Positions 3,428 to 16,837 of a stretch of DNA of 26,468 nucleotides are shown one piece after another. The stretch covers positions 1 through 26,468 of the IMG/VR virus record IMGVR_UViG_3300035699_000196; one strand, written 5' to 3'. A program made the position numbers and the translations under genes. The first letter of the stretch is position 1. Each line of letters begins with the position of its first letter. The notes below the pieces were generated by a model, which saw only the letters and a program-made list of their open reading frames with translations, was not told where the DNA came from and ran no database searches. The stretch comes from a virus.

Positions 3428-3679
3428 CTACTCTAATGATTTAATCAACTCAATTGCTTCATCTATCGTATTGAAACTTCTGGTTGGTATTAATATATGG
3501 GGTTTCTTGATGATTATAGGTATTATGGGTTTACCAACAAACTCATATAATTTATCAACATGTTCTCTATTTTTGTCATTATCCACGTCAATGTCGGTAT
3601 ATTCAATATTACCCCTCTGTAATTTGGTTTTTAAATCATTACAGTATACGCATTCTTCACTTGTATATATTCTAATCAT
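3428..3679 (-). CDS. Glutaredoxin
   Basis: An 83-aa thioredoxin-fold protein with the glutaredoxin dithiol motif CVYC (C10, C13) after the first strand MIRIYTSEE. A cis-Pro-type segment GKPIIPIII follows at about residues 49-57, and a C-terminal helix DEAIELIKSL closes it. The length is standard for phage glutaredoxins (T4 NrdC is 87 aa). In T4-like phages these proteins reduce ribonucleotide reductase or other phage thiol enzymes; no reductase gene is visible here, so its partner is unknown. Its ATG overlaps the TGA of the helicase gene in an ATGA arrangement, which indicates translational coupling and a shared transcript. Confidence 0.88.
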   Translation of the reverse strand: MIRIYTSEECVYCNDLKTKLQRGNIEYTDIDVDNDKNREHVDKLYEFVGKPIIPIIIKKPHILIPTRSFNTIDEAIELIKSLE

Positions 3680-6606
3680 AGTTTTAAGTCATTTTCTTTT
3701 AACTCACCCAAAAGATTTGCCATCCTTTCACTGTGTTTATCACCTTTAGTTAGTATCTCATCAATATTTTTTTGTTTACTCATAACAGAATACCACATCA
3801 TTAAAGAAATAGTACCTCTAAATAACTGGTAATATACCGATACATTGTTTTTTTGACCAATTCTATAACTTCTATCTTCTGCTTGTTCATTATCACCTGG
3901 TACCCAACTAAAAGAGTTGAATATTACAACCGTGGCCTCAGTTAAGGTAATACCGACACCAGCTGATGTTATGTTACCAATGAAAACTTTTGTTTTCTTG
4001 TTATTTTGGAATTTATCAATTGATTCTTGCTTAGCTTTACTGCCCATTCTACCATTATGTATAACACACTTATTACCGAAGTGTTCAGATAACTCCTCTA
4101 GTTCTTCAGTAAATGTTGTAAATATAATAACTTTCTGGTCTTGTTCAATAGCTTCCTCAGCTAACTCAATTGATTTAGGTATTGTTTCCATCGCAATGAA
4201 TTTTCTCAATAGACCTAATTCAACTAAATCCTTATGTACTGAACTTGTTTTACGTTTACCTTCTTCAGCTCTTTTTTCTAAGTACTCTTCCCACAAGTTT
4301 TCGTATTCTGACCAACCACGTTTAGATAAATCATGGTACATTGTAGTTATGGTTTTATCTGGCATATCTAATGCTTCAGATTTTAATCTTCTTAACAAAC
4401 TGTTTTTAGTTCTAATACCTAATTCAGCTAAATTTGACGCTCCATCAGTAATCCATATTTGTTTAGTTCTACCGTTTTTAAGTTTTTTATAGAAACGCTT
4501 GGCATCACAATATCTTGTGGCAAAAAACTTCCAGTTAGCACCTAATGGTGATTTTATTAATTTTAATAGGTTGAAAAAATCCATTGGTTTATTGGCAATT
4601 GGTGTACCTGTTAATAACCAAACTTTTTCTATATTACCACGCTCTATAATGTCGTTCATTATTTTAGTTCTTTGAGCTTTAGGGTTTTTAATTTTATGAG
4701 CTTCATCCATGATAACTAAATCATAATTTTCTTTCATGATATCCTCATAGTAAGGTTCATTTTTCTTACGAGGACCTGTTGAATGAAAATTCTTTAGAAT
4801 GTCATAATTTATAATTGTATATTGACCAACGTCTGGCCAGTTACTACCACTAACTATAATCGCTTTCTTACCGAAGCTTTCAACTTCCCTTTGCCAAGAT
4901 ATCTTAACACTAGCTGGACATACGATTAACACTTTTTTAGCTCCAACTTCTAAAGAGGATATAATTGATTGATATGTATTATGTGTAACAATACCATGAT
5001 TAATAACAAATAATGAGTCTTCAGCATCAACCTTAATACACACACTATCACCTTCACCAATAGATTCTATATTTTTAATGTATCTACCAACCTTATATTT
5101 TTCAGGTGTGTTATATTCATCAGCTTTTCTCTTTAACCTAAATGGATTCATCCCTTCTGGTAATTTAATATTTAAACGATAAGCTTTTTCATCATCTGAA
5201 TTTTTATAAGGACCTATTTTACTCTTTTTTCTTACAATACCACCCAAACTATGTACAATTTCAGCCACATCATCAGCTAATTGTTCAGATACACTACAAT
5301 ATTCAGTTCCAGTAAAATTTCCGCTTTTTGATTTCATACAATGACCATCAGTGTCCATAAGACCTTGAAGGATAGCTAATCTATCTTCAATTGAAGAATA
5401 TTTATATATTTCTGGAATGAATTTGGTGTGAGATAAAGTACCATTTAATTTAAGTGCACATACTTCTTCTTTTAAATTATTTAAATAATTTAATCTTATA
5501 TTAAAACCACCTGAACTTTCATTAACACATTGATTTTTAAATATTTCATCAAAATCAGCTTTATGTAAGCCAATACTAATAACACCCGTTTTTTTGATAT
5601 GTCCACCACCCAAAGTAACACCTAATAAATAAGGTTCAATAGGTAATTTATATTCATTTTCAAATTCAATTGGTTTAACAATTGGAATTTGCCATTTGTT
5701 TTGTCCATTAGGTTGTTTGTAATATGTTTTAAACTTATAAGGTCTTTTCTCATTCCATCCAAAACCCCTTTGTTCTAACTCTAATTCTTTATCCAACATT
5801 TGTTCGATTGTTAAATTAGTGTATCTAATTAACCGATTTTTATTATTCACACTACCATTATTTGCTGTAACAGTCCACATATGTTCTTTACAACAAATAG
5901 TAGAATATCCATCATTAAATGTTATTTTAAATAAATCTTTTTTAGGTTGTGGGTGAACTTCAAGAACTTTTGTTTTTTTACCATCAGAACCAATTACATA
6001 ATCACCCACTTTTAAATCGCCAATTTTAACCTTTCCAGTTGGTGTGTAAACTAACTCATTGATAATCACCGCTTTACCCAAACCCATATCGTCAGCTAAA
6101 ATAGCACCATCTCTGCATGATAAAAATTCAATTCCAGTTTTTTGGTGCTCATAAGGTAACCTACAGTCAGCGTCCATTTTTTCGTACCTCTCCCAGTCAA
6201 TATCTAAATCACACTCAGTAAAATAAGGGTCATCCAATACCATAGTTTTTGGTAAGAAATACATTTTAGCGTGTTTCTGATTCCTCTTAAGCTTACCGTA
6301 TACGTGATAAGTTTTTTCTTGGTCAGCTAACATGGCTTGAATTAGAATTCTTTCTGGAACAAAAGATAGATTTTCTTTTTCCTTTAAAGAGTTACCCAAT
6401 AATGGATTTATTTCAACCACCTTGTTTAAGACTTGAGGTGGAGTATCGTGAAAATCAGTTATGTACTGAGATTGCCCTTCAGTTAAACTTATTTTACCTG
6501 TTTTGAGTAACTTAGATTTTAACTCCTTTATATAAGGGTTGATACCTTCGTATGTTTGCAATAAAGTTACTGCACCCCTACCCTTTAAATCATTTATATC
6601 TATCAA
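3676..6606 (-). CDS. SNF2-family DNA helicase/translocase with intein in the Walker A loop
   Basis: A 976-aa precursor. The exteins form an SF2/SNF2 ATPase of the SMARCAL1-like type, a role similar to T4 UvsW in fork remodelling. Motifs: Q-like region PYEHQKTGIEFL (about 151-162), motif I ADDMGLGK-[intein]-TYQSI, motif II MDEAHKIKNPKA (DEAH 634-637), motif III LTGTPIANKP (666-669), and motif VI QAEDRSYRIGQ (908-918). Without the intein, a protein of about 611 aa remains. The annotated start is TTG (6604-6606): an in-frame TAA lies 18 bp upstream of it and no ATG lies between, so a non-ATG start is needed. The gene ends in a 4-bp overlap with glutaredoxin. No late-type motif precedes it, fitting expression with the polymerase. 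The enzyme cannot bind ATP until the intein leaves, because Gly-Lys and Thr of the P-loop are separated. Confidence 0.92.
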   Translation of the reverse strand: MIDINDLKGRGAVTLLQTYEGINPYIKELKSKLLKTGKISLTEGQSQYITDFHDTPPQVLNKVVEINPLLGNSLKEKENLSFVPERILIQAMLADQEKTYHVYGKLKRNQKHAKMYFLPKTMVLDDPYFTECDLDIDWERYEKMDADCRLPYEHQKTGIEFLSCRDGAILADDMGLGKAVIINELVYTPTGKVKIGDLKVGDYVIGSDGKKTKVLEVHPQPKKDLFKITFNDGYSTICCKEHMWTVTANNGSVNNKNRLIRYTNLTIEQMLDKELELEQRGFGWNEKRPYKFKTYYKQPNGQNKWQIPIVKPIEFENEYKLPIEPYLLGVTLGGGHIKKTGVISIGLHKADFDEIFKNQCVNESSGGFNIRLNYLNNLKEEVCALKLNGTLSHTKFIPEIYKYSSIEDRLAILQGLMDTDGHCMKSKSGNFTGTEYCSVSEQLADDVAEIVHSLGGIVRKKSKIGPYKNSDDEKAYRLNIKLPEGMNPFRLKRKADEYNTPEKYKVGRYIKNIESIGEGDSVCIKVDAEDSLFVINHGIVTHNTYQSIISSLEVGAKKVLIVCPASVKISWQREVESFGKKAIIVSGSNWPDVGQYTIINYDILKNFHSTGPRKKNEPYYEDIMKENYDLVIMDEAHKIKNPKAQRTKIMNDIIERGNIEKVWLLTGTPIANKPMDFFNLLKLIKSPLGANWKFFATRYCDAKRFYKKLKNGRTKQIWITDGASNLAELGIRTKNSLLRRLKSEALDMPDKTITTMYHDLSKRGWSEYENLWEEYLEKRAEEGKRKTSSVHKDLVELGLLRKFIAMETIPKSIELAEEAIEQDQKVIIFTTFTEELEELSEHFGNKCVIHNGRMGSKAKQESIDKFQNNKKTKVFIGNITSAGVGITLTEATVVIFNSFSWVPGDNEQAEDRSYRIGQKNNVSVYYQLFRGTISLMMWYSVMSKQKNIDEILTKGDKHSERMANLLGELKENDLKL
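4978..6072 (-). other. Class 3-type intein in helicase P-loop, with degenerate LAGLIDADG endonuclease
   Basis: A 365-aa insertion (A179-N543 of the precursor) between Lys and Thr of GLGK|T; removal restores the P-loop exactly. The first residue is Ala, so no N-terminal nucleophile exists. Instead the class 3 signature is present: Trp two residues after the block B His (KEHMW; H242, W244), Cys at the block F position (SVCIKVD; C523), and Thr before the terminal His-Asn (IVTHN; T541, H542, N543), followed by Thr+1. Class 3 inteins use the block F Cys to start splicing. The endonuclease core has LAGLIDADG motif 1 as LLGVTLGGGHI, with Gly where Asp is expected, and motif 2 intact as LQGLMDTDGHC. 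Cleavage activity is therefore doubtful, while splicing residues look complete. Confidence 0.9.
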
Positions 6607-10706: not shown

Positions 10707-10870
10707 TTACTCGTCGTGTGAACTACCCACCCACGCCAGAGGCGATGGGATGGGCTTCGGGTTTCACAGAGTGTGCGTTATCACTAACGTCTGATTTCCT
10801 CTCCACCTTTGTAATCGCCAGTTCCTGACGATATATTTTTAAACCTTCTTTTAGAATGTTTTGACTTGCA
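10698..10870 (-). ncRNA. Predicted omega RNA (reRNA) of TnpB with guide in the flank
   Basis: In IS605-type elements the TnpB guide RNA is made from the 3' end of tnpB and the transposon right end and runs into flanking DNA, which acts as the guide. Here that is the minus strand from roughly the end of the zinc-finger region through the 10726-10754 hairpin, with the guide at 10698-10717. With TTTAT as TAM, the guide would match the reconstructed empty site exactly. The 5' limit is a guess; no promoter is seen. Confidence 0.45.
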
Positions 10871-11919
10871 TTTAAATCACGGTCTAATTTATGACCATTC
10901 TTGCATATCCATTCTCTATCTGAAAGATTTAAGTCTTGATTTATATATCCACAAACATTACAAGTCTTTGAACTCGGATACCAACGATTAATCTTAACAA
11001 GAGTTTTATCATTCCAATCTGCCTTATACTCAACAAATCGAACAAACATTCCCCAACTTGCATCAGAAATATGTTTGGATAGTTTTCTGTTTTTAATCAT
11101 TCCTTTGATATTTAAATCCTCAAGACATATTACATCATAGTTATTTACGATTTCGTTACTTACTTTATGTAATGTATCTTGCCTTGTGTTTGTGATTTTC
11201 TCGTGAATTTTAGCAACTTTGAGTTTTTGTTTTTCAAACCCATTACTACCTTTTTGTTTACGAGAAAGATGTTGTTGTGCCTTTTTTAATTTACGTGCAT
11301 ATCTTTTTGTGTATCTATTATTTTTATATTTTATTCCATCAGAAGTGATAGCAAAATCTTTTAATCCTAAATCTATCCCAACTGATTTACCAGTATTTTT
11401 CTTTGGATTATATTCTTGTTCAGTCAATATTGAAACAAAATATTGACCAGTTGGTGTTTTGGATATTGTGAATTTACCTACTTCACCTTTAATTTCTCTA
11501 TGGATATTTACTTTAATACCACCTTTAAATTTAGGTAAGAATATTCTACCATCAACAACTTTAGTGTGTTGTGGTACTGTAAATGTATTTTTATTCTTTC
11601 TTGATTTAAATCTTGGGAATTTAGCGTTACCCCTAAAAAAATTAACATAAGCGGTATCTAAACTTCTTAAAGCAAATTGCAAGGTTTGAGAATTAACTTC
11701 TTTTAACCAAATAGTATCTTCTTTTTTCTTTAATTCAGTTAAAGTTTTTGCTTGTCCGTAATAATTATCAGTTTTTTTATCTGATTGATATTGTTCCTTC
11801 CTTTCGTTTAAAAAGTGATTGTAAATATATCTAACACAACCGAAGTGCTTATCCAACAAGGTTTTCTGTTCCTCATTAGGTAGTAATTCAAATTTATATG
11901 TTCTATGTATATTCTTCAC
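10723..11919 (-). CDS. tnpB: TnpB RNA-guided endonuclease
   Basis: 398 aa, intact. It has an N-terminal wedge/REC part (HRTYKFELLPNEEQKTLLDK; HFGCVRYIYNHFL) and the RuvC catalytic acids in GIDLGLKDFA (D183), CLEDLNIKGM (E267) and LDRDLNASQNIL (D346/D348). A zinc-finger insert has CNVC (320-323) and C-K-N-G-H (339-343), in which one ligand is His-like rather than the usual second CxxC. TnpB with its omega RNA cuts DNA next to the transposon target motif and so keeps the element from being lost after excision. The start is GTG at 11917-11919, and no ATG lies nearby. The last 35 or so codons overlap the right-end hairpin and omega RNA. It is divergent from tnpA across 146 bp. Confidence 0.93.
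   Translation of the reverse strand: MKNIHRTYKFELLPNEEQKTLLDKHFGCVRYIYNHFLNERKEQYQSDKKTDNYYGQAKTLTELKKKEDTIWLKEVNSQTLQFALRSLDTAYVNFFRGNAKFPRFKSRKNKNTFTVPQHTKVVDGRIFLPKFKGGIKVNIHREIKGEVGKFTISKTPTGQYFVSILTEQEYNPKKNTGKSVGIDLGLKDFAITSDGIKYKNNRYTKRYARKLKKAQQHLSRKQKGSNGFEKQKLKVAKIHEKITNTRQDTLHKVSNEIVNNYDVICLEDLNIKGMIKNRKLSKHISDASWGMFVRFVEYKADWNDKTLVKINRWYPSSKTCNVCGYINQDLNLSDREWICKNGHKLDRDLNASQNILKEGLKIYRQELAITKVERKSDVSDNAHSVKPEAHPIASGVGG
10726..10754. repeat. Right-end subterminal hairpin of the IS605 element
   Basis: CCCACCCACGCC, loop AGA, GGCGATGGGATGGG. Twelve base pairs with two single-A bulges (10745 and 10750). Imperfect hairpins like this are what TnpA binds in single-strand form. It overlaps the tnpB 3' end. 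Confidence 0.8.
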
Positions 11920-12065: not shown

Positions 12066-12470
12066 ATGCAATCAAATTACATCAGTACAAATCATTCAAA
12101 ACATTATCTAAAAGCACATATCATTTTAGTTACAAAGTATCGTAAACCATTATTGGTTAATCAACTTAAAGATGATATGTACACAATATTCAACAATATC
12201 ATAGATAACTCAGATTTTAGCGTAGAAGTATTCGAGAGTGATATTAATCACATACATTTCCTAATTAGGTATATCCCACGTCTTTCAATCTCACAAATAG
12301 TTCGTAGGTTAAAACAAGAATCTACTCGTCAAATTTGGTTGTTACATTCTACATTACTTCGTAGAGAATATTGGTACAAAAATATGTTTTGGAGTGCAGG
12401 TTATTTTGTTTGTTCAATAGGTGAAGCAAGTCCAGATACAATTCGTCAATATATTTTAAGTCAAGGTTAA
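12066..12470 (+). CDS. tnpA: TnpA, Y1 HUH single-strand transposase (IS200/IS605)
   Basis: 134 aa, near the usual length for the family (about 130-155). The HUH motif is H62-I-H64 in SDINHIHFLIRY, and the catalytic Tyr is in the C-terminal helix DTIRQYILSQ (Y129). The IS200 signature ISQIVRRLKQ and the REYWYKNMFWSAGYFV block are intact. It excises and inserts one DNA strand at a short target, using the hairpins near the ends. All key residues are present, so the element looks active. It runs away from tnpB, toward the left end. Confidence 0.95.
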   Translation: MQSNYISTNHSKHYLKAHIILVTKYRKPLLVNQLKDDMYTIFNNIIDNSDFSVEVFESDINHIHFLIRYIPRLSISQIVRRLKQESTRQIWLLHSTLLRREYWYKNMFWSAGYFVCSIGEASPDTIRQYILSQG

Positions 12471-12816: not shown

Positions 12817-15240
12817 ATGAGTACAAACAACAGAGTATTTGTAAGTCCAGGGGTTTACACATCAGAAAGAGACATATCATTTGTAACACGTCAAATAGGT
12901 GTTACAACAGCTGGTTTGGTAGGTGAGACTACAAAAGGTCCAGCTTTCCAGCCTATATTCGTTTCTAATTATAACGAATTCACTTCATTCTTTGGTGGGA
13001 CAAACCCAGCCAAATTCCCTGATACTGGATATCCTAAATATGAGTTACCTTATATAGCTAAATCATACTTCACAAGGTCTAACCAATTATATGTAACAAG
13101 AGTATTAGGTTACTCAGGTTATGATGCTGGTCCAGCTTGGGCAATTAAAGGTAATAATGACCAAGTTGTTGCTTTTATTAGAAGTAGAGGTAGTTACGAT
13201 GCTAGTGAAGATTTAATCTTCGACGTAGGCATTGATGATTTACAGATTGACCCTGCTATTAATGATATTGATAGTGACGCAAAGGCCGAATTTGTATTAA
13301 GTGGTACAACTGGTGGTAATGACTTTACCTATAACGTATCATTTGACTCAACTAAAAAGAATTATTTACCTAGGGTTTTAGGTCAATCAAATTCAGATGG
13401 TCAAGCACCTATATTTGTTGAGAGTATTTATCCAAATATGTTAGATTCTTTAATAGATGATAGTACCATTACTGGTATTAGTACTACTTTAGATAAATTT
13501 GAAACTGAATTCGAAGATTATAAAACCAAATATAGACCTGCTATAACTCCATGGGTTGTATCTGAGGTTAATGGTAATATTATTAAAAAATTATTCAGAC
13601 TTATTACTATATCAGATGGTAATGGTGCCAATTCAGAGATTAAAGTATCTATTGAAAATATAAGGCCTAATGCTAGGGAATTTGATGTTAGAATTAGAGC
13701 ATTCAATGATACTGATGCTAATCCAGTAACTTTAGAAAGATTTTCTAGATGTACAATGGACCCAACTTCAGATAATTTTGTTGGTAGAAGACTTGGTACT
13801 TTAGATGGTTTTTATTCTTCAGTATCTAATTATGTGTTAGTTCAATTAGATGAAACTGAGGAAACTTCAGATTCATTCCCAGCTGGATTTACTGGTGTGC
13901 CTACTAAGGCCTTTGGTGCTTCTTTAGATGCTCCATCAGTTAATTATAATCAAGCTTATGGTCGGTTCGATAAAGTAAGAAAAATTTACTTAGGTCTTTC
14001 AGATACAGTAGGTATAGATGGAGATTTCTTTAAATTTATAGGGGCTGATGACGAGGCTACTAGTGGTATGACAAACGGTTTCCATATGGACATTGACGCA
14101 AGTGGTGCTACTTTAGATAACTTCACATTTGTTTATGGAGATTCTAATTTCCAAAACGATGCTCAATTAGGATTATCTGGTAACAGTTACACTAGAATAC
14201 AATCAAGAAAATTCACAATGGCACCTTTCGGTGGTTTTGATGGATGGGATGAGTATAGAGAAGGTAGAAGTAATACAGATAGTTTTGTATTAGGTCAAAC
14301 CAATAGTAATGAAGCTTTAGCTAGTGGTGCTATTGCTGAAATGGCTCTGGAAAATGGTGACCAAGGAACGACAGCTGATTACTACGCATATCAAGAAGCT
14401 ATAAGAACATTTAATAACCCTGAAGAAACTAACGTTAACGTGTTTGCAACACCAGGTATTGATATATTTAATCACACTAATCTTGTCGAATCGACTATTG
14501 AAATGGTTGAGGAAGAAAGAAGTGATTCTATCTATATTACAACAACACCTGATTATGAGAATGAGACGGTAATTACTGTAGATGATGTTGTTAATAGATT
14601 AGACGCTACAGGTATTGACAGTAGTTATACTGCAACATACTGGCCTTGGGTACAAGTTAATGATACAGATAATAACGTATTAGTATACTTACCACCTACA
14701 AGAGATGTTATAACTAACGTTGCTTTAACCGATAATGTATCATTCCCATGGTTCGCTGTGGCTGGTGTACAGAGAGGTATTGTAAACGCAGTTAAAGCTA
14801 GAAAGAAATTAACTTTAGGTGAAAGAGATACTTTATATGAAGGTAGAATCAACCCTATCGCTACATTCGCTTCTGAAGGAACAGTTATTTTCGGTAATAA
14901 AAACTTACAAGAAAAAGAAACTGCTTTAAACAGACTTAACGTAAGAAGATTATTACTACAGGCTAGAAAATTAATATCTGCTGTATCAATCAGATTATTA
15001 TTCGAACAAAACGATGAGGTTGTAAGAAATCAATTTAAAACATTAGTTAACCCTATTCTAGAAAATATTAGAAGTGAAAGAGGTCTTACTGATTTCCGTG
15101 TAGAAGTTGATAACTCACCTGAGTCAATTGATAGGAACGAACTTAACGGTAGAATATTCATTAAACCAACAAGAGCGTTAGAATTTATAACAGTAGAATT
15201 TGTTGTACAAAATACTGGTGCATCATTCGAAGATATATAA
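12817..15240 (+). CDS. Tail sheath protein (T4 gp18-like)
   Basis: 807 aa, longer than T4 gp18 (659 aa), which points to extra surface domains in the middle. The N-terminus has the sheath signature VSPGVYTSERD (residues 9-19), followed by GVTTAGLVGETTKGPAFQPI, SNYNEFTSFFGG and the SYFTRSNQLYVTRVLG block. The C-terminal domain, which forms the interlocking arm with neighbouring subunits, is conserved: ETALNRLNVRRLLLQARKLI, then a segment with NQFKTLVNPILENIRSERGL and a last strand LEFITVEFVVQ. The protein forms the contracting outer tube of the tail. It is preceded by a late-type motif, followed by a strong terminator, and transcribed apart from the tube gene. The start at ATG 12817 gives the usual short N-terminus. 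Confidence 0.96.
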   Translation: MSTNNRVFVSPGVYTSERDISFVTRQIGVTTAGLVGETTKGPAFQPIFVSNYNEFTSFFGGTNPAKFPDTGYPKYELPYIAKSYFTRSNQLYVTRVLGYSGYDAGPAWAIKGNNDQVVAFIRSRGSYDASEDLIFDVGIDDLQIDPAINDIDSDAKAEFVLSGTTGGNDFTYNVSFDSTKKNYLPRVLGQSNSDGQAPIFVESIYPNMLDSLIDDSTITGISTTLDKFETEFEDYKTKYRPAITPWVVSEVNGNIIKKLFRLITISDGNGANSEIKVSIENIRPNAREFDVRIRAFNDTDANPVTLERFSRCTMDPTSDNFVGRRLGTLDGFYSSVSNYVLVQLDETEETSDSFPAGFTGVPTKAFGASLDAPSVNYNQAYGRFDKVRKIYLGLSDTVGIDGDFFKFIGADDEATSGMTNGFHMDIDASGATLDNFTFVYGDSNFQNDAQLGLSGNSYTRIQSRKFTMAPFGGFDGWDEYREGRSNTDSFVLGQTNSNEALASGAIAEMALENGDQGTTADYYAYQEAIRTFNNPEETNVNVFATPGIDIFNHTNLVESTIEMVEEERSDSIYITTTPDYENETVITVDDVVNRLDATGIDSSYTATYWPWVQVNDTDNNVLVYLPPTRDVITNVALTDNVSFPWFAVAGVQRGIVNAVKARKKLTLGERDTLYEGRINPIATFASEGTVIFGNKNLQEKETALNRLNVRRLLLQARKLISAVSIRLLFEQNDEVVRNQFKTLVNPILENIRSERGLTDFRVEVDNSPESIDRNELNGRIFIKPTRALEFITVEFVVQNTGASFEDI

Positions 15241-15943: not shown

Positions 15944-16837
15944 ATGGAAAAAATTAAATGTAAAATATGTGAAAAAGAATTCACATCATTAATGGGGTTA
16001 AGTAAACATAATTCACAAAAACATAGTATATGCTCAAAAGAGACATATATTCAATATAAATTGAATGGAAATAAACCAGTTTGTCAATGTGGTTGTGGTG
16101 AAGAAACTAATTACCTTTCAATAAAAAAAGGTTTTGTTGATTATGTTAGAGGCCATGCGGCTAGAATTAATAATAATTGGGGGCACAATCCTGATGCTTT
16201 AACTAAATCACATGAAACCCAAAGATTAATGCATAAAACAGGTCAATTAAAAGTGTGGAATGACGGATTAACAATTGATGACTCAAGAGTTAGGGATAAT
16301 ATAGATAAGGTAATGGCAAATCCAAACAGAAGTAAAAGGATATCTAAAGCTTTATCTGACGTACCTAAATCTGAAGAACATAAACAAAATTTATCAATCG
16401 CACAAATTAAATCATGGGATAATCAGGAAAAGCGTGATAGACAACGCGATAATAGAATGAGGTATATCAGAAATAATGATTTAGTACCTATCTCAAAATT
16501 AGAAAAGTATTTTGAGGAAATATTATTAGCTGAATTTAAATTAAAAAGTGGTGTTGATTATTATCCACAATTTTATATTAGAGATATTAAAGCATTGTTT
16601 GATTTTAAATTATCTGGTAAAAAAATTTTAATTGAAGTAGATGGTGATTATTGGCATTGTAATCCTAACACTAAATTTAAAGTACCTAAATACGCAGCCC
16701 AATTTTCTAATTTAAAAAAAGATAAAATAAAAAAAGAGTGGTGTGATAAAAATAGTTATATCTTATTAAGATTCTGGGAAAATGATATTAATAATAATCT
16801 AGATGAAATTATTACCAAATTAAAAGAATTTTTATAA
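15944..16837 (+). CDS. Free-standing homing endonuclease, zinc-finger + Vsr-like (EDxHD) nuclease
   Basis: 297 aa. Residues 6-27 form a C2H2 finger (C6, C9, H22, H27). A second Cys/His cluster follows (C47-Q-C49-G-C51 and H71 in FVDYVRGH). A NUMOD-like segment KSEEHKQNLSIAQIKSWDN precedes the nuclease. The C-terminal domain has LFDFKLSGKK (D220), ILIEVDGDYWH (E231, D233, D235, H238), a basic helix with KKDKIKKEWC, and the strand YILLRFWENDI. This is the very-short-patch-repair/DUF559-like fold used by EDxHD homing endonucleases such as I-Bth0305I. It sits alone between the tube gene and a small gene and is probably copied into phages lacking it at that site. Its host-type promoter differs from the late motifs around it. 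Confidence 0.8.
   Translation: MEKIKCKICEKEFTSLMGLSKHNSQKHSICSKETYIQYKLNGNKPVCQCGCGEETNYLSIKKGFVDYVRGHAARINNNWGHNPDALTKSHETQRLMHKTGQLKVWNDGLTIDDSRVRDNIDKVMANPNRSKRISKALSDVPKSEEHKQNLSIAQIKSWDNQEKRDRQRDNRMRYIRNNDLVPISKLEKYFEEILLAEFKLKSGVDYYPQFYIRDIKALFDFKLSGKKILIEVDGDYWHCNPNTKFKVPKYAAQFSNLKKDKIKKEWCDKNSYILLRFWENDINNNLDEIITKLKEFL

Follow-up and report, generated by a model that had tools for sequence, protein, structure and literature searches.

P-loop class 3 inteins are well documented in phage helicases and terminases. As a class, these inteins are defined by a Trp/Cys/Thr (W/C/T) triplet and by a nucleophile located in block F (PMC3196547, PMC5222942), and a phage origin has been proposed for them (PMC3196547, citing Tori and Perler 2011). 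A 2020 survey recovered 1,701 class 3 inteins from nr, 82.5% of them with LAGLIDADG motifs and with only rare deviations at Trp and Thr (PMC7891396), and insertion of phage inteins between the Lys and Thr of the P-loop (K/T) has been called classic (PMC5050341).

The intein described here resembles the class 3 inteins of MP-Bethlehem DnaB, D. radiodurans Snf2, MP-Catera Gp206, and mycobacterial DnaB-1, which require no nucleophile at position 1 and carry Trp at B:12, Cys at F:4, and Thr at G:5. Further likenesses are the block B His, the C-terminal His-Asn, Ser or Thr at +1, the P-loop K/T or K/S site in ATPases, and the frequent occurrence in phages. Among annotated relatives, the intein of Parabacteroides phage PF672P1 (OP172819) has the full class 3 signature and a K/T insertion and is 36% identical to ours. 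Those of uncultured phage LR756508 and Brevundimonas phage Papperlapapp (ON529860), about 32% identical, combine the class 3 signature with an SNF2-type helicase and the same GK/T site. Our intein departs from the known class 3 set in two respects: it is about 36% identical or less to the annotated phage relatives listed, and its same-site family has seven different residues at position 1, Phe, Met, and Leu among them.

The intein and its helicase host

The window, i.e., the whole stretch of viral DNA analyzed (26,468 nucleotides; IMG/VR record IMGVR_UViG_3300035699_000196), is a 26-kb linear contig and represents one allele. The features relevant here, all on the minus strand, are as follows.

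3676..6606 (-): SNF2-family DNA helicase gene, intein-containing precursor (open reading frame; Pfam SNF2-rel_dom and Helicase_C; PHROG 62, DNA helicase)
4978..6072 (-): intein of 365 aa with class 3 signature, between Lys and Thr of Walker A (GLGK/T) (translation, alignments, tree; AlphaFold2 pLDDT 89.5, pTM 0.89)
6070..6072 (-): Ala1 (GCG), in place of the class 1 nucleophile
5869..6072 (-): N-terminal part of the splicing domain, blocks A and B, with His64 at B:10 and Trp66 at B:12 (alignments; Foldseek to class 3 MchDnaB-1, 6riy, rmsd 1.1 over 69 columns)
5344..5628 (-): LAGLIDADG homing endonuclease core (Pfam LAGLIDADG_3, PF14528, 1.6e-5; alignment; PI-SceI as best fold match)
5605..5607 (-): codon of intein residue 156 (codon 334 of the gene), GGT for Gly, ancestrally GAT for Asp; polymorphic for GGT, GAT, and AAT
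4978..5085 (-): C-terminal part of the splicing domain, blocks F and G, with Cys345 at F:4, Thr363 at G:5, His364, and Asn365 (translation, alignments)
4975..4977 (-): Thr+1 (ACA), the helicase P-loop threonine and second splicing nucleophile

The helicase precursor is a single open frame of 976 aa, with Pfam matches at its two ends to SNF2-rel_dom (2.3e-28) and Helicase_C (6.2e-16). Precursor residues 179 to 543, running from 6072 down to 4978 in the window, form the insert, with junctions that read ...GAILADDMGLGK / AVIINELVYT and VINHGIVTHN / TYQSIISSLE. Removal of the insert rebuilds the Walker A motif GLGKT, the same motif that is unbroken across the empty site of L090 and L099 (GLGKS in L097). 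The coordinates, the P-loop position, and the phage SNF2 host gene given in the initial annotation are thus all borne out, as is the predicted spliced length of about 611 aa; translation gives 611 aa, a figure that depends on an inferred TTG start at which the alignment with homologues also begins. A glutaredoxin-like gene (3428-3679, minus strand; Pfam 7.2e-10) lies immediately downstream of the helicase.

By its tail sheath gene (12817-15240, plus strand), the virus itself is a contractile-tailed phage far from described ones; the nearest known relatives of that gene are in Microcystis phage Mel-JY01 (30%), the 484-kb phage LR756508, and Flavobacterium phages.

The resemblance of the insert to inteins exceeds chance, as indicated by phmmer matches to inteins in the PDB (a gp41-1 variant at E=8.7e-12 and the class 3 DnaB inteins 6rix, 6riy, and 6bs8 at about 1e-5 to 4e-6), by 742 phage records matching at E<=1e-5, and by recurrence of the same insert at the same K/T site in about 80 viral contigs. 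All of the diagnostic residues that the initial annotation had listed (Ala1, W244, C523, T541, the terminal His-Asn, and Thr+1) are present in the translation. In intein numbering, precursor residues W244, C523, and T541 are W66, C345, and T363, with W66 two residues past H64.

The class 3 assignment proposed in that annotation hinges on where these residues fall, and in every alignment C345 lay in block F and W66 in block B. The W/C/T triplet was in register with all 30 class 3 references, which came from phages and bacteria, and occurred in none of six class 1 controls. On the tree, the window intein fell on the class 3 side, with support of 98/96 for the split from those controls; the two sets compared are these controls, gathered in this analysis, and class 3 references other than the type sequences Bethlehem DnaB and Dra Snf2. 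The AlphaFold2 model was built from 48 sequences and replaced a first model built from 13 (pLDDT 71.9). Its best Foldseek match as a whole was PI-SceI, a protein with splicing and endonuclease domains, and the modeled splicing domain alone matched 6riy and 6rix (rmsd 1.1 to 1.2 over 69 columns), consistent with a HINT fold. The intein therefore combines the absence of Cys, Ser, or Thr at position 1 with Trp B:12, Cys F:4, Thr G:5-His-Asn, and Thr at +1. Ala1 does not provide the Cys, Ser, or Thr that serves class 1 inteins as first nucleophile, and neither the SNF2 host gene nor the full W/C/T triplet fits the KlbA type (class 2). By every sequence and fold feature examined, the window intein is a member of the already common class 3.

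Position 1 and the same-site alleles

The roughly 80 same-site viral contigs were reduced to 55 distinct alleles, which we used to separate fixed from free positions. His64, Cys345, Thr363, His364, and Asn365 did not vary in any of the 55, and position 66 was Trp in 52 and Phe in three (L023, L032, and L042, all of which keep Cys F:4 and Thr G:5). Position 1, in contrast, was Ala in 17 alleles, Cys in 15, Phe in seven, Met in six, Gly in six, Ser in three, and Leu in one. On a maximum likelihood tree of the alleles, from which the first three columns were excluded, position 1 changed at least 19 times, and it crossed between potential nucleophiles (Cys or Ser) and inert residues at least 10 times. 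This placed it within the 28 fastest of 361 columns, whereas the catalytic columns showed zero changes. A class 1 intein could not tolerate such freedom at position 1. The combination of an invariant Cys345 with a switching first residue therefore supports a class 3 mechanism, in which splicing would be begun by the block F Cys.

Cys1 or Ser1 occurs together with Cys F:4 and Thr G:5 in 18 of the 55 same-site alleles, and the closest relatives of the window intein outside its own population have Cys1. As judged from these sequences, a nucleophile at position 1 is an unreliable mark for excluding an intein from class 3. The Ala1 clade of the window is nested on the tree among Cys1 alleles (L011, L026, L012, L013, and L016-L018); read in that direction, Ala1 probably replaced a Cys1 that was already dispensable.

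These Cys1 and Ser1 alleles raise the question of whether the family at this insertion site straddles the class boundary, with some Cys1 relatives starting to splice at position 1 in the class 1 manner while the Ala1 allele of the window does not. Besides the 18 alleles themselves, the TxxH feature reminiscent of class 1, with Thr or Ser at B:7, is found in seven of these 18 and in none of the other 37 (Fisher p=1.6e-4), and L032, with Cys1, Thr B:7, and Phe B:12 together, looks almost class 1. The link between Thr/Ser at B:7 and Cys1/Ser1 was, however, not significant in independent pairs on the tree (median p 0.125), and we regard such straddling as improbable. Cys1 and Ser1 inteins with the W/C/T motif tested by Tori and Perler in 2011 reportedly still used the block F Cys. 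A milder version, to which we give somewhat more credence though still as a minority view, is that either nucleophile may serve in some of the Cys1 alleles that have Thr or Ser at B:7; the natural alleles of one site would then record a crossing between class 1-like and class 3 chemistry.

Residue 61 (B:7) also varied with position 1 more broadly across the 55 alleles. Gly at B:7 accompanied a bulky first residue (Phe, Met, or Leu) in 14 of 14 cases versus six of the 41 others, and Asp at B:7 accompanied Gly1 in six of six. In distant lineages, L114 and L115 likewise pair Gly1 with Asp, and L128 pairs Met1 with Gly. In a class 3 structure from the literature, B:7 lies against both residue 1 and the scissile bond, and A1G abolished splicing there (PMC7891396), which makes compensation between the two positions plausible. 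On the intein tree, B:7 led all 217 columns in co-change with position 1, with 9 of 14 changes coinciding (p=2.9e-5, uncorrected), but it drops to rank 28 of 221 on a tree built from residues 76-330 only, and we therefore treat coevolution as a lead and not as a finding. Part of the signal could also come from N-terminal segments having been exchanged between alleles.

Probable past mobility and endonuclease decay

Helicases with an empty P-loop site are found in L090 (75% identical over 611 aa), L097, and L099. For most relatives carrying the insert, identity is higher in the intein than in the extein (82.6% versus 68.8% for L011; 81.0% versus 57-62% for L026), as expected if the element passes from one helicase to another; part of this difference could also come from the intein evolving more slowly. 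The pattern is reversed in L021 (intein 70.4%, extein 75-79%, with 79% over the C-extein), as if a different intein allele had been acquired. The element has thus neither simply followed its host gene nor always outrun it.

A second intein occupies SNF2 motif VI (EDR/C...NVHN/CYRIG) beside the P-loop intein in L021, L011, L024, L025, L034, L038, L045, L046, and L057. It is also carried by L091-L096, L098, and L100, and in L091, L092, L094-L096, L098, and L100 the P-loop is empty wherever the contig is long enough to show it. With Cys1 and without Trp B:12 or Cys F:4, the motif VI intein is, by its sequence, class 1. M. smegmatis DnaB likewise combines a class 3 intein in the P-loop with a class 1 intein elsewhere (PMC6195587), a combination matched here in L021, L011, L024, L034, L038, L045, and L057. 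Unlike that system, the host in our case is an SNF2 helicase and the second site is motif VI (EDR/C). The window helicase has only the class 3 intein; its motif VI is empty (EDRSYRIG), with Ser at the +1 position.

The initial annotation made no mention of a LAGLIDADG domain or of the loss of its block C Asp. Two LAGLIDADG motifs are present, block C (LLGVTLGGG, intein residues 149-157) and block E (LQGLMDTDG, residues 235-243). The catalytic Asp at motif position 8 remains only in the intact block E (Asp242); in block C, Asp156 has become Gly. The same architecture of a splicing domain with a LAGLIDADG endonuclease is found in PI-SceI and in TliVMA/PhoVMA, and PhoVMA has also lost catalytic Asp residues (PMC8966425). 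These inteins differ from that of the window in splicing by the class 1 route, and they are 12-16% identical to it over the fold match.

Asp242 is unchanged in all 55 alleles and Asp156 is kept in 48; the block C Asp has also been lost in L026 and L060. In both L026 and L027, which have Cys1, the intein is shortened to 311 aa and block C reads LSLGYGDV, the endonuclease being in partial deletion. LAGLIDADG enzymes no longer cleave both DNA strands once the catalytic Asp of block C is lost. The window endonuclease is therefore probably inactive, with nicking by the Gly156 form a possibility beside the expected loss of double-strand cleavage.

The window belongs to a near-identical population of 12 contigs, itself included, with 99.4-100% DNA identity over the gene, and within this population codon 156 exists in three states: GAT (Asp) in L009 and L010; GGT (Gly) in the window, L002, L003, L004, L007, and L008; and AAT (Asn) in L005, L006, and L020. 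The remaining contig, L088, begins downstream of the codon. Because the outgroups have Asp at 156, these states imply two separate substitutions in one catalytic codon among the 28 variable sites of the gene, and the 11 metagenome identifiers found besides the window's own record argue against assembly error as their source. A rough uniform expectation, set up once the data had been seen, puts the probability that either of the two catalytic codons is hit twice at 8e-4, or 2.5e-4 if only amino-acid changes are counted, a suggestive departure from chance. From these sequences, inactivation of the endonuclease looks recent and looks to have occurred at least twice, and this agrees with the stage of the homing cycle at which the endonuclease decays (PMC1654191, PMC8966425). 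Within the population, an excess of amino-acid changes was not significant either for the intein relative to the extein (p=0.064) or for the endonuclease relative to the splicing domain (p=0.068).

Other mobile elements occur in the same stretch. An IS200/IS605-type element (10723-11919, minus strand, and 12066-12470, plus strand), consisting of a TnpB RNA-guided nuclease (NCBIfam 1.1e-129) adjoining a TnpA-like transposase (PHROG 2577), sits just upstream of the tail sheath gene, and a free-standing HNH/homing endonuclease-like gene (15944-16837, plus strand; weak matches to PHROG 559 and 9084) lies amid the tail genes. Together with the intein, these make three kinds of mobile element within 26 kb. 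No Rfam family and no tRNA was found within the window.

Splicing model and biological meaning

We consider it very likely that this SNF2 helicase of a tailed phage carries, in its ATP-binding loop, a mobile class 3 intein or the descendant of a mobile ancestor. The anatomy of the insert, its fixed and free positions, its placement in class 3, the codon polymorphism, and the empty sites are seen in the sequences themselves; splicing and its chemistry, homing in the past, and the inactivity of the endonuclease are what we infer from them. After translation, Cys345 of block F, activated by His64 and Thr363, would attack the Lys-Ala1 bond and take up the N-extein as a thioester. The N-extein would then be handed to Thr+1, Asn365 would cyclize with the aid of His364 to release the intein, and an acyl shift would then link the two exteins, giving a 611-aa helicase whose GLGKT is unbroken. 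With Walker A split by the insert, the helicase would be unable to bind ATP normally before splicing. At the DNA level, the intein would have spread by homing, with the LAGLIDADG endonuclease cutting intein-free alleles. The window allele would now have an endonuclease without its block C catalytic Asp and a splicing domain that stays conserved, presumably because the helicase needs splicing.

Three other readings of the locus seem less probable to differing degrees. Ala at position 1 is shared with class 2 inteins, in which case Thr+1 would attack the N-terminal junction directly and Cys345 would be merely structural. Published class 2 inteins are, however, confined to KlbA genes (PMC3196547), the window intein has the full W/C/T triplet with a Cys345 that is invariant in 55 alleles, and in a test of the class 3 intein Bvi IcmO the +1 residue was no substitute for the block F Cys (PMC5222942), so that this is the least credible of the three. 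The loss of the catalytic Asp of the endonuclease, together with the existence of pseudogenes among class 3 inteins (PMC3196547), might instead point to a decayed intein that no longer splices, comparable to Arthrobacter Arth_1007, and hence to a nonfunctional helicase in this phage. Against this, every splicing residue is intact, the helicase frame is open, and the 12 near-identical contigs show no amino-acid change in intein residues 1-68 or 330-365, whereas Arth_1007 lost both Cys F:4 and His B:10; decay of splicing is accordingly very unlikely. Somewhat less remote, although still unlikely, is regulated splicing, in which the precursor would keep the helicase inactive until a redox or other signal arrives. 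This was proposed for M. smegmatis DnaBi1, which shares the class, the P-loop site, and the Cys nucleophile (PMC6195587), and in the window intein Cys60 and Cys61 share block B with His64. Cys is present at 61 in just 22 of 55 alleles, however, with no sequence sign of regulation, and an intein in a site of the essential type is read by default as splicing constitutively.

Taken singly, the window intein is one more member of a large class, and the useful part is the series of alleles at the same site. What is new here is that series, with its free exchange at position 1, together with a population snapshot of endonuclease loss. Drawn from natural variation instead of engineered mutants, the series is evidence that catalysis is fixed at the Cys of block F rather than at position 1, and it puts natural Cys1, Ser1, Gly1, Met1, Leu1, and Phe1 variants on hand for probing which first residues are permitted. 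Of the 55 alleles, 15 have Cys1 and would be overlooked by surveys in which its absence defines class 3 (PMC7891396). Population studies of the decay step have been called for under the homing-cycle model (PMC1654191), and the decay of a homing endonuclease might be followed in nature in a population such as this one, in which one catalytic codon encodes Asp, Gly, or Asn.
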